From contig JANXDB010000005.1 of NCBI GenBank assembly GCA_025060015.1, forward strand, positions 1 to 44,014: DNA of 44,014 nucleotides. Reading direction: 5' to 3'. Within the stretch, counting starts at the first letter, position 1; each line of letters opens with the position of its first letter. This document shows positions 19,871 through 28,821 of this stretch, piece by piece. The notes under the pieces are model-generated. The model was not told the origin of the DNA. It did no database searches and saw only the letters and a program-made list of their open reading frames with translations. Position numbers and translations under genes: made by a program. This DNA comes from Caldimicrobium sp. (GTDB lineage Bacteria > Desulfobacterota > Thermodesulfobacteria > Thermodesulfobacteriales > Thermodesulfobacteriaceae).

Positions 19871-22997
<3,127 letters not shown>

Positions 22998-23018: not shown

Positions 23019-23198
23019 TTATTCTTTCTTTGATCCTTCAGAGGTATTACTCTCACAAGATCCGTCACACTTCTTATCTGCCCCACCCTGGGGAAGATTA
23101 GGAACACCTCAGACTGGAACTCCACCTTTCGAGAGAAGAATTCTAGACATTACTAACAAACCCACAACTAAAACTATCAAAATTAACAGATCTGTCAT
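23019..23198 (-). CDS. Candidate small membrane selenoprotein (in-frame TGA at codon 30)
   Basis: The ATG at 23198 begins 1 nt after the gltX stop (TGAGATG), with GAGGGGG about 9 nt upstream. Codons 1-29 encode MTDLLILIVLVVGLLVMSRI then LLSKGGVPV, one transmembrane helix followed by basic residues. Codon 30 is TGA (23111-23109). The frame then continues for 29 codons, GVPNLPQGGADKKCDGSCES and SEGSKKE, to TAA at 23021-23019. The tail has a C-x3-C pair at residues 44 and 48. A strong hairpin directly follows the TGA. With selenocysteine the product is 59 residues; if TGA is a true stop it is a 29-residue membrane peptide. Layout resembles small FeoB-associated Cys-rich membrane proteins, but I do not recognise a family. 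No sel genes are in this window. Confidence 0.5.
23070..23104 (-). promoter_or_regulatory. SECIS-like hairpin immediately downstream of the in-frame TGA
   Basis: Minus-strand RNA after UGA: 4 nt, then a stem with CU/AG, an A-A mismatch, AUCU/AGAU, a U-C mismatch and CCCC/GGGG, closed by the loop AGGGU (23089-23085). Nineteen nt separate the UGA from the loop, close to E. coli fdhF. The loop has G at its second position, as bacterial SECIS models require. No U-run follows, so it is not a normal terminator. Confidence 0.5.
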
Positions 23199-23199
23199 C

Positions 23200-24597
23200 T
23201 CAGTGAACCCCCTCTAATAATTTTAGAACCTTATTGATTCTCTGGTTTACTCTATCCTTTCCAAGATGCCTCATTATTTCAAAAAGAGGCGGACTTATAG
23301 TCTTCCCAGTAAGAGCCACCCTTAGGGCTTGGGCAAGCTCTTTTAATTTTAAACCCTCTCTATCGGCAAACTCCCTAAATTGTGCCTCTAAGGACTTCTC
23401 GTCACTAAAATCATACAGATGTAAGTTCTCAATAAAACTCTTTAGAATAGGCACTTTTTTAGGTGGTATAAATTTTTTCACAAGGGCTTCGTCGTAGTTA
23501 AGATCCTCTAAAAGGTAAAAGTCCATCATTTCAGCCATTTCTTTCAAAGTCTTAACCCTTGGCTTTATACTTTCCAAAATCTCCAAAAGATAGTCCTCAG
23601 AGTAAAGATAAAGAGGGTAATCCCCTAAAAAGGGCTTCAGATGGGGTAAAATATCTTTGCTCCCAAGGGTTCTTATCCAGTAGCCATTAAAGGCAAGCAA
23701 CTTTTCGGGGTCAAAACGAGCAGGTGATAGGTTCACCCTTTTTATATCAAATTTTTCTATGAGCTCCTCCATAGTGAAATATTCCTGGTCTCCGTATCCC
23801 CAACCAAGTCTTGCTAAATAGTTTATAAGGGTCTGTGGTAGATAGCCCTCTTCCTTGTATTCCAAAATTGATTTTGCACCGTGTCTCTTGGAGAGTCTAC
23901 TACCATCTGGCCCAAGAACCATTGGTATATGGGCAAAAGATGGGGGATCAACACCCAAGGCCTGATAAATGATGAGTTGTTTTGGTGTGTTGGAAATGTG
24001 ATCATCTCCCCTAATTACGTGGGTGATTTTCATAGTTATGTCATCGATAACTACTGCAAATTGATAGGTAGGGCTGCCATCGGAGCGAAGAATTATGAAA
24101 TCATCTACCTCATCGGCGGGAAAGACTATTTTTCCCCGCAAAAGATCCTCAAAAAGGATTTCAGCAACCTCTGGAACCTTTATTCTAAGAGCCCTTCCGG
24201 ACCCCGGTGAAAGTCCCTTCTCTCTGCAGGTTCCTTCATACCGAGGTTTTAAGCCTCGCTCTTGAAGTTCTTTTTTCCGTGCCTCCAGAAGCTCCTTAGA
24301 ACACTCACAGTAATAGGCCTTACCCTCTTCATAGAGTTTTTGTGCGTAATACTGATAAATCTCAAAGCGCTTACTTTGGAAATAGGGGCCCTCGTCCCAC
24401 TCTAAACCAAGCCATTTCAAGGATGAGATTATGGACTCCACATACTCGTCCTTAGAACGTTCCTTATCAGTATCCTCAAAACGAAGGATAAACTTCCCCC
24501 CGTGATGTTTTGAAAAGAGATAATTAAAAAGAGCTGTTCTTGCACCGCCTAAATGGAGATGCCCTGTGGGACTTGGAGGAAATCTGGTTATTATCAT
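23200..24597 (-). CDS. gltX: Glutamyl-tRNA synthetase
   Basis: A class I synthetase charging tRNA-Glu, 465 residues. The HIGH-type motif is in PPSPTGHLHLGGARTALFNY. The KMSKS equivalent is GSRLSKRHGA, and IRGDDHISNTPKQLIIYQAL is a GluRS signature. The ATG at 24597 has AGGAAGG five nt upstream, so I prefer it to the GTG at 24603, which would sit on that site. It follows the memo-like gene by 15 nt, and the hidden small gene starts 1 nt after its stop. Confidence 0.97.
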   Translation of the reverse strand: MIITRFPPSPTGHLHLGGARTALFNYLFSKHHGGKFILRFEDTDKERSKDEYVESIISSLKWLGLEWDEGPYFQSKRFEIYQYYAQKLYEEGKAYYCECSKELLEARKKELQERGLKPRYEGTCREKGLSPGSGRALRIKVPEVAEILFEDLLRGKIVFPADEVDDFIILRSDGSPTYQFAVVIDDITMKITHVIRGDDHISNTPKQLIIYQALGVDPPSFAHIPMVLGPDGSRLSKRHGAKSILEYKEEGYLPQTLINYLARLGWGYGDQEYFTMEELIEKFDIKRVNLSPARFDPEKLLAFNGYWIRTLGSKDILPHLKPFLGDYPLYLYSEDYLLEILESIKPRVKTLKEMAEMMDFYLLEDLNYDEALVKKFIPPKKVPILKSFIENLHLYDFSDEKSLEAQFREFADREGLKLKELAQALRVALTGKTISPPLFEIMRHLGKDRVNQRINKVLKLLEGVH

Positions 24598-24612
24598 CGC
24601 CACCTTCCTGAT

Positions 24613-26271: not shown

Positions 26272-28821
26272 ATGGCAAAGCTAAAACTATCCGAATTAGC
26301 AGCAGAATTTAATTTTGAACCAAGGGAATTTCTAAACAAACTGAAGGAAAAGGGATTCACCTTTAAGTCCATCAACTCTTCTCTTTCTGATAGTGAAGCA
26401 GAGGAAATTCGCAAAATCTTTGCTAAAAGAGAAGTTATTGTCATAAAAAGAGAAGAGATCGTAAAAGAAGAGGTTATAGCACCTCCTTTGGAAAAGCCAC
26501 CCATTGAAGAGGCCCCTAAGAAAAGAAAGCTCATAGTCAAGAAGAAGATCGAAGGAGTAGAGGAAAGGGCTGAGGTAACCCACCCCGAGGAGATAAAGAG
26601 AGAGGAGATTCAAGTTACAAGTCCAGCCAGAGAGGAAACTCTTACCTACGAAGAGCCAAAACCAGTAGAAGAAACAAAAACCTTACAAGCTGAGGCACAA
26701 GTAGTCGTTGAGGCACAACCTGAAAAGAGGATTGTTACAGAATTTAAACCAAGGAAAGAGAGGGTTTTCAAAGCCAAGCCTACTGTAGAAGAGAAAAAGC
26801 TACCTGTCCCTGAAATACCAACTCCGGTGGAAAAAGAAGAGATAAGAAAGAAAAAATGGGAAGCAGAAAGACCAGAGGAAAAAAAGAAGCCCAAAAAGAA
26901 GGCTCCAAGTTTAAAGAGAAGTAGACGAGAGGAGCTTGAGGAGTTCTTTGAAGAAGAAGTAGGAGCACTTTTTGAGGAGATTCCAGAGGAATCAGAAGAG
27001 AAGAGGCCTCCTAAAGCCCCTGTCAAAAGGGAAACCATCTCTGAGAGGCCTCCTACTTTACCTCCCAAAGAGAAAAAAATAAAGATTTATGAATCCATAC
27101 AGGTGGGAGAGTTGGCAAAGCTCATGGGAGTCAAATCAGGGGAACTTATTAAAAAGGCTCTTACCTTAGGTATGCCCTTAACAATAAATCAATCCATTGA
27201 TCCTGACACAGCGGCAATTTTAGCGGATGAATTTGGTTATCAAGTGGAAAAGGCAACTATTGAGGAGGAAATCCTTCTTCAATACACTCCCCCCTCTCCT
27301 GAGGAACTTAGACCAAGACCACCAGTTGTCACAGTTATGGGACATGTGGACCATGGTAAAACCACTCTTCTTGATGCCATAAGGAAAACAGATGTAGTTA
27401 GCAAAGAAGCAGGGGGAATTACGCAGCACATTGGTGCCTACACCGTTACGTTAGATGATAACAGAAAAATAACCTTCATAGACACACCTGGTCACGAGGC
27501 CTTTACCTCCATGAGAGCAAGGGGTGCTCAAGTTACAGACATAGTGATCCTGGTTGTGGCAGCGGATGATGGAGTTATGGATCAAACCAAAGAAGCCATA
27601 GAACATGCAAGAGCAGCAGGAGTTCCTATAGTGGTTGCCATAAATAAAATTGATAAGCCCAACGCTAATCCAGAGAGAGTCAAATCACAATTAGCAGAAC
27701 TCGGCCTTGTTCCAGAAGACTGGGGTGGAGATACCCTTGTTGCTAATATTTCAGCTAGAAACAGGATTGGCATTGAAGATTTGCTGGAGCTAGTCTTACT
27801 CCAGGCAGAGATGTTAGATCTAAAGGCAGCCTATGATAGACAAGCCAGAGGTAGAGTTGTTGAAAGTAAGTTAGACAAAGGAAAAGGTCCTGTGGCAACA
27901 GTTTTAGTTCAGGAGGGCACTTTAAAAGAGGGAGACGTCTTTGTATGTGGAACTACCTATGGAAGAGTTCGTGCCATGTTCGATAGCTTAGGAAATAGGA
28001 TTAAGTCCTCTACCCCTTCAACTCCTGTTGAAATCTTAGGCTTTGAAGAACTGCCCTCTCCAGGTGATGATTTCTTCGTGATTGAAGATGAAGAAAAGGC
28101 AAGAAAGGTGGCAGAATACAGGCAGAGAAAGGCTAGAGAGGCAGAAAGTGCAAAGGTGGCTAAAATTAGCCTTGAGAAGATCTTTGAAAAACTCTCAGAG
28201 GGAGAACTCAAGGAACTTAAAATCGTTCTCAAAGCAGATACTCAGGGAACTCTGGAAGCGCTCGAAAGCTCACTACAAAAGTTAAGCACAGAGAAAGTAA
28301 AAGTCACTGTGATCAGAGCAGGTATTGGGGCCATAAGTGAAAGTGATGTTATGCTTGCTGCAGCCTCAGATGCCATCGTGATCGGCTTCAATGTCAAACC
28401 ATCCTCTCAGGCCAAGGATGTTGCCAAAAAAGAAGGCATAGACCTCCGCTTCTATGATGTGATTTATCATCTCCTTGAGGATATCAAAAAAGCCATGGTA
28501 GGCTTGCTTGAACCTAAGTTTGAAGAGGTAATTGGAGGAACAGCGGAAGTGAGGGCCACCTTCAAAGTGCCAAAGGTTGGCGTTGTTGCAGGATGTTATG
28601 TGAAAGAGGGTGTCATTAACAGAAACCATCGTATAAGAGTTATAAGAGATGGTGTCGTCATCTACACAGGTAAAATTGCAAGTCTTAGGAGATTTAAAGA
28701 GGATGTTAGAGAAGTTCAGGCTGGATATGAGTGTGGTATAAAGATAGAAAACTTCAACGATATCAAAGAAGGAGATACCTTAGAAACTTTTGAGATAAAA
28801 GAAGTAACCCAGGAACTGTAA
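26272..28821 (+). CDS. infB: Translation initiation factor IF-2
   Basis: The GTPase that brings initiator fMet-tRNA to the 30S subunit. An IF2_N domain (about residues 1-50) is followed by a highly charged linker rich in E, K and P (60-270) and a second IF2_N domain (275-330). The G domain has GHVDHGKTT (357-364), DTPGHEAF (404 on) and NKID (448-451). Domains II-IV complete the 849 residues. No clear Shine-Dalgarno precedes the ATG (GCGGGGT ends 11 nt away). It leads the conserved order infB, ylxP, rbfA, nrnA, truB. nusA, often upstream, is absent here. Confidence 0.98.
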   Translation: MAKLKLSELAAEFNFEPREFLNKLKEKGFTFKSINSSLSDSEAEEIRKIFAKREVIVIKREEIVKEEVIAPPLEKPPIEEAPKKRKLIVKKKIEGVEERAEVTHPEEIKREEIQVTSPAREETLTYEEPKPVEETKTLQAEAQVVVEAQPEKRIVTEFKPRKERVFKAKPTVEEKKLPVPEIPTPVEKEEIRKKKWEAERPEEKKKPKKKAPSLKRSRREELEEFFEEEVGALFEEIPEESEEKRPPKAPVKRETISERPPTLPPKEKKIKIYESIQVGELAKLMGVKSGELIKKALTLGMPLTINQSIDPDTAAILADEFGYQVEKATIEEEILLQYTPPSPEELRPRPPVVTVMGHVDHGKTTLLDAIRKTDVVSKEAGGITQHIGAYTVTLDDNRKITFIDTPGHEAFTSMRARGAQVTDIVILVVAADDGVMDQTKEAIEHARAAGVPIVVAINKIDKPNANPERVKSQLAELGLVPEDWGGDTLVANISARNRIGIEDLLELVLLQAEMLDLKAAYDRQARGRVVESKLDKGKGPVATVLVQEGTLKEGDVFVCGTTYGRVRAMFDSLGNRIKSSTPSTPVEILGFEELPSPGDDFFVIEDEEKARKVAEYRQRKAREAESAKVAKISLEKIFEKLSEGELKELKIVLKADTQGTLEALESSLQKLSTEKVKVTVIRAGIGAISESDVMLAAASDAIVIGFNVKPSSQAKDVAKKEGIDLRFYDVIYHLLEDIKKAMVGLLEPKFEEVIGGTAEVRATFKVPKVGVVAGCYVKEGVINRNHRIRVIRDGVVIYTGKIASLRRFKEDVREVQAGYECGIKIENFNDIKEGDTLETFEIKEVTQEL

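Follow-up and report, generated by a model that had tools for sequence, protein, structure and literature searches.

Does the short gap between gltX and trpS on a contig of Caldimicrobium sp. (JANXDB010000005.1, assembly GCA_025060015.1) hold a small gene in which an in-frame TGA is read as selenocysteine (Sec)? An earlier note had proposed a membrane selenoprotein there, within the 44,014-nt stretch of DNA analysed here (the window). We found the proposed frame in the gap; its strand, which the note left unstated, is the minus strand, and the gap measured 202 nt rather than 201 bp. Translation with TGA as Sec (U) gave MTDLLILIVLVVGLLVMSRILLSKGGVPVUGVPNLPQGGADKKCDGSCESNTSEGSKKE followed by TAA, confirming 59 codons interrupted only by the TGA at codon 30. 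The frame runs from ATG 23198-23196 to TAA 23021-23019, that is, from 1 nt past the gltX stop to 21 nt before trpS, as described. The Shine-Dalgarno sequence and the C-x3-C pair downstream of the TGA were likewise where the note had placed them. gltX and the small gene are probably co-transcribed. The features of the locus are as follows.

23200..24603, minus strand: gltX (glutamyl-tRNA synthetase), upstream neighbour; ORF with stop at 23202-23200
23208..23215, minus strand: Shine-Dalgarno-like AGAGGGGG, 9 nt 5' of the ATG, within the 3' end of gltX
23019..23198, minus strand: predicted selenoprotein gene, 59 codons plus TAA; translated with TGA as U (tblastn to itself, E 1.4e-33)
23127..23195, minus strand: codons 2-24, predicted single transmembrane helix (AlphaFold2; conserved hydrophobic segment)
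23111-23109, minus strand: putative Sec codon TGA, residue 30 (TGA in nearly all homologues, TGT/TGC in Cys homologues)
23076..23098, minus strand: putative bacterial SECIS hairpin, apical loop GGG (fold; family-wide hairpin and covariation)
23055..23069, minus strand: C44-x3-C48 pair, possible resolving thiols (translation; alignments)
21999..22997, minus strand: trpS (tryptophanyl-tRNA synthetase), downstream neighbour; ORF with start at 22997

To find relatives, we searched the 59 residues by tblastn within the order; at a cut-off of E<=1, 22 of the 41 genomes contained a match. A profile of alignment A1 (20 sequences including that of the window, all with TGA at the same codon) matched 168 of the 395 genomes of the source phylum, in 111 of 246 genera, as well as 93/396 genomes of the phylum of an Acidobacteria record and 26/294 genomes of the phylum of a Phycisphaerales record. 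A scan of genome contigs with the single window sequence gave no match. A chance ORF was ruled out by this homology, with TGA at the same codon and profile matches across several phyla. Thermodesulfatator autotrophicus and another genome of the same order (L155 and L025) carry the same gene sequence at the protein level.

TGA stands at the same codon in nearly all homologues. Among the matches listed in the source phylum, only that of G042 contained no internal stop, and its TGA lies just beyond the matched stretch. In none of the sequences examined was codon 30 TAA or TAG; a few matches contain one of these stops, always at another place. The observation that would have refuted the selenoprotein (TAA or TAG there, with no conservation downstream) was thus not made in these sequences. 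We further scanned about 85,000 species genomes with a DNA pattern blind to Sec or Cys (TGA, TGC or TGT allowed). It returned at least 120 stretches, and all 120 listed had TGA, a plausible frame and a hydrophobic segment upstream. Their record titles were mainly those of Desulfuromonadales, Geobacter, Syntrophobacteraceae and other Deltaproteobacteria, and included MAGs of Spirochaetes, Planctomycetota, Acidobacteria, Aminicenantes, KSB1, Sumerlaeota and Verrucomicrobia.

The rough family consensus reads M-x-[DE]-[LI]-x(n)-W-x-x-[LI]-[NQ]-[KR]-x-[IVL]-L-P-[KR]-x-G-[VI]-x-T-U, directly followed by [MLA]-[SA]-x-[ST]-C and a tail that is often Lys-rich. G-rich sites like AGAGGGGG precede most homologues. 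The window protein departs from the consensus: its helix lacks Trp, LSK stands in place of LP[KR], and the residue before Sec is V instead of T. It has C-x3-C at 44/48, where most relatives carry only one Cys, at Sec+5. Other variants were seen. In four loci (L303, L123, L119 and L132) Gly takes the place of Thr ahead of Sec (GLGU, HGU, HLGU), and the loop is often shortened as well. In one sister genus (L028:1486-1653 and L029:1486-1653) the motif is PCUQIP, with Cys directly before Sec and the +5 Cys missing, a possible vicinal Cys-Sec pair.

Replacement of Sec by Cys is standard comparative evidence for selenoproteins. Four matches in the Phycisphaerales-record phylum contained no internal stop; three are Cys homologues (L270 and L271 with TGT, L272 with TGC), and the fourth, L273, has its TGA just beyond the match. 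Another Cys homologue, L299, comes from the Acidobacteria-record phylum. With four such homologues, a strictly Sec-only family was dismissed, and the expectation of the earlier note that relatives would keep the TGA and the sequence after it, or show TGT/TGC in its place, was met. A search for tRNA-Sec gave no match in the genomes of L270, L271 and L272 and a match in 12 of 14 TGA-bearing genomes. No match was found in TGA-bearing G554 and G703 (Planctomycetota search), for which only part of the candidates was scored. Genome-wide reading of TGA as Trp is unlikely: gltX ends in TGA, a tRNA-Sec(TCA) is present, and relatives exchange TGA for Cys, not Trp.

The source genome (1.6 Mb, 99% complete) has the machinery for Sec. 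The check for selA, selB, selC and selD suggested by the note found all four: SelA (591 bits), SelB (398 bits), a tRNA-Sec with anticodon TCA (84 bits) and SelD (333 bits). The selD gene has its own in-frame TGA (L265, G000:C44:44133-45065), and its product is likely a selenoprotein itself. The second-best match to the SelB profile, at 108 bits below the cut-off, was an 849-residue ORF at 26272-28821 (plus strand) of the window, probably translation initiation factor IF-2. The presence of SelB is a weak test because SelB is nearly universal in the phylum (353 of 395 genomes). Among the SelB-negative genomes listed, all seven that were positive for the family have tRNA-Sec (74-80 bits), so the absence of SelB there is probably an assembly gap. 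Of 14 carrier genomes labelled as other phyla, 13 have tRNA-Sec; an Armatimonadetes-labelled MAG (G425) gave no tRNA-Sec match, with only part of the candidates scored.

The note had held that the codons past the TGA look like protein. Using 37 non-overlapping pairs, we obtained dN/dS of 0.12 for the 20 codons before the TGA, 0.135 for codons +1 to +7 after it and 0.374 for codons +8 to +20. Judged from these comparisons, the codons past the TGA are under purifying selection. The transmembrane helix claimed upstream was supported by the conserved hydrophobic segment and by AlphaFold2, which, given the A2 alignment (33 sequences), predicted a confident helix at 2-24 (mean pLDDT 95 and 92 for the first two ten-residue blocks). 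The remainder was modelled with low confidence (mean pLDDT 67, pTM 0.36) and is probably disordered. Because basic residues follow the helix, the C-terminus is inferred from the positive-inside rule to be cytoplasmic.

A hairpin placed like a SECIS does follow the TGA in the window. Its folding energy is unremarkable (-13.0 kcal/mol, z -0.46; 62 of 200 shuffled sequences were equally stable or more so), so the window sequence alone is not proof of a SECIS; support came from the family. Of 154 non-redundant sequences, 120 have a strong hairpin past the TGA, against a mean of 18.6 and a maximum of 24 for dinucleotide-shuffled sequences. The stem mostly begins 17-20 nt past the T of the TGA and the loop is usually 3 nt, with G at the first two loop positions in 117 of the 120 hairpins. 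A small apical loop with G is a published feature of bacterial SECIS elements (PMC1088965). For covariation, analysed instead of the bSECISearch run that the note had proposed, we used 125 sequences picked by the protein pattern U-x4-C only. Pairing was seen at 64% of the seven stem positions, compared with 48% (maximum 52%) when shuffled and at most 47% when slid, and five stem pairs were within the eleven pairs of highest mutual information. Rfam gave no meaningful match.

We therefore consider it nearly certain, on comparative grounds, that 23019-23198 is a protein-coding selenoprotein gene, as the note had proposed. That reading is supported by the conservation of the TGA, the Sec machinery, the Sec/Cys pair and the covarying hairpin; Sec incorporation is without experimental proof, with neither proteomic nor 75Se data behind it. 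Comparative evidence likewise supports coding, the TGA as Sec, the putative hairpin and the predicted helix, whereas the topology, a selenenyl-sulfide and a role in sulfur metabolism are inferred only.

For function we turned to gene neighbourhoods. A universal operon partner was sought and not found; because the context varies between loci, the functional reading rests on a subset of them. Of 177 non-redundant loci, 15 have an upstream gltX-like ORF in the same orientation, and 6 have a trpS-like ORF downstream; in the order of the window the neighbour is often gltX, sometimes trpS. Since the gene often follows gltX in this order, the link to sulfur was drawn from other lineages. Over 192 loci, neighbours on the same strand were YgaP-like_TM genes (15/15), rhodanese genes (6/6), PDO-like genes (4/4) and thioredoxin genes (6/10). 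In the Acidobacteria set, YgaP-like_TM or rhodanese/PDO-like genes occurred in 19 of 40 loci, always on the same strand, whereas 100 control windows, taken from part of these genomes, had none (Fisher p ~1e-12, ignoring relatedness among the 40 loci). The Cys homologues L270 and L271 are each flanked by a metallo-beta-lactamase/rhodanese protein on one side and a sulfide:quinone oxidoreductase (SQR) on the other; the SQR beside L270 matched mitochondrial SQR in the PDB at E 7e-130.

Two further observations concern these neighbourhoods. The 19 positive Acidobacteria loci include L304 (G1016:C7:19117-19200), a weak family match (18.8 bits) that adjoins a YgaP-like gene, has neither Sec nor Cys, and is possibly decayed. 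In Geobacteraceae, Desulfuromonadaceae and similar records (L135, L189, L190 and L238) there are same-strand runs of C_GCAxxG_C_C, the family gene and a YgaP-like membrane protein, some also with RND, metallo-beta-lactamase-type or rhodanese genes.

The product is most likely a membrane-anchored thiol/sulfane-sulfur redox protein. SelB would read the TGA as Sec, helped by the hairpin just downstream, to give a single-pass membrane microprotein with a short N-terminus, one helix, basic residues and a cytoplasmic C-terminus. Sec would lie at the membrane edge, and a selenenyl-sulfide could link it to a Cys of the disordered tail, usually at +5. The proposed partners are rhodanese/YgaP-like, persulfide-dioxygenase-like, SQR and thioredoxin proteins; the selenoprotein may take or reduce sulfane sulfur (persulfide) at the membrane and be re-reduced via its own Cys and thioredoxin. 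Taken as a whole, the identity of the gene together with the membrane sulfane-sulfur explanation appears to us well supported. The sulfane-sulfur role by itself, inferred from neighbourhoods in other lineages and not shown for the window gene, has close to an even chance of being correct. We advance still more tentatively the wider proposal of a widespread micro-selenoprotein family dedicated to sulfane sulfur, in which Sec at the membrane surface takes or reduces the persulfide produced by SQR, by rhodanese or by cysteine desulfurase, before a nearby Cys and thioredoxin carry it onward.

The strongest competing reading accepts a true selenoprotein and makes it a general thioredoxin-linked membrane peroxidase or thiol reductase, not a sulfane-sulfur protein. 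We think this doubtful, yet it has real support. A thioredoxin gene lies closely downstream on the same strand at several loci, convergent CcdA-like genes occur in Geobacteraceae, and thiol oxidoreductase activity is presumed for most bacterial selenoproteins (PMC13188914). In a Pirellulales-labelled MAG (L138:1145-1660, plus strand) the family gene even continues, without a break in the frame, into an entire thioredoxin domain (WCGPC, 111 bits), a candidate natural fusion that also counts for the sulfane-sulfur reading. However, thioredoxin was found in only 3 of the 40 Acidobacteria loci, fewer than the 19 with YgaP-like and rhodanese/PDO-like neighbours, and SQR adjoins two Cys homologues.

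It is unlikely that Sec and Cys instead bind a metal or metalloid in connection with ArsR repressors and RND pumps. ArsR-type genes do neighbour the family in 16 of 192 loci, 13 times in the same orientation, and RND, C_GCAxxG_C_C and rhodanese genes adjoin in Geobacteraceae-type records, but the link to ArsR weakens in the Acidobacteria set (3/40), and the window gene has no such neighbour. ArsR proteins, moreover, can sense persulfides too.

That the family is real while the window copy is decaying or non-functional seems very improbable. Several residues of the consensus are missing from this copy, whose identity to its best relative, L010, is only 43%, yet its frame, Shine-Dalgarno sequence, TGA, hairpin and TAA are all intact; since L010, of the same genus, shares several of its departures, it looks like the form of a sub-lineage. 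We see almost no room for a membrane microprotein of 29 residues that stops at the TGA ahead of a conserved RNA hairpin: the first 29 codons are an ordinary ORF in the window, but the amino acids past the TGA, with conserved Cys and Ser/Ala, are under purifying selection, the codon is TGA rather than TAA/TAG, the Cys homologues read through, and the hairpin is usually followed by A-rich Lys codons, not a U-run.

The selenoprotein family appears to be uncatalogued. Neither the window protein nor the other A1 members had a significant match in Pfam or NCBIfam (June 2026), and nine further canonical members had none in NCBIfam (June 2026). None of the 119 prokaryotic selenoprotein families of a 2026 review (PMC13188914, Table 1) fits its motif and size, and it is not listed in the parts of two readthrough surveys available to us (PMC1914089, PMC1242214). 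Apparently, the catalogues checked (Pfam, NCBIfam and the 2026 review, with open literature only) contain neither the protein family nor its architecture; the decoding is that of the known Sec system. Gene-finding programs end a frame at TGA and pass over very short ORFs, which is apparently why a selenoprotein in more than 40% of the sampled genomes of one phylum has stayed out of the catalogues. The authors of deep-Sep noted that selenoproteins lacking Cys homologues may be missed or filtered out (PMC12013277), and Cys homologues are very rare in this family. Through the family, Sec would gain a link to sulfane-sulfur metabolism at the membrane, and Geobacter-type bacteria are among the culturable relatives in which that link is open to testing.

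Like selenoproteins decoded by SelB with a SECIS inside the gene (FdhA, SelD, GrdA), the family has an in-frame TGA, a G-loop hairpin, Sec machinery and a Sec/Cys pair. Unlike the listed bacterial selenoprotein families, to which it has no detectable homology, it has no thioredoxin fold and consists of about 45-75 residues with one helix; a single helix with a disordered tail was not found among listed prokaryotic selenoproteins. Eukaryotic SELENOK and SELENOS are small single-pass membrane proteins with Sec near the C-terminus in a disordered tail. The likeness to them is one of architecture, the only aspect compared, and here Sec lies mid-protein at the membrane edge with Cys after it. YgaP-like membrane domain proteins (PF11127) and the membrane rhodanese YgaP are also small, membrane-bound and linked to sulfur transfer, and are frequent neighbours on the same strand; YgaP-like is, however, a separate gene, and the selenoprotein family has no match to PF11127. 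In TsoA (NF045695), judged from its motif name LULAXC, Sec is likewise shortly followed by Cys, at +4 as opposed to +5 in most members of this family, and NCBIfam does not match the two.
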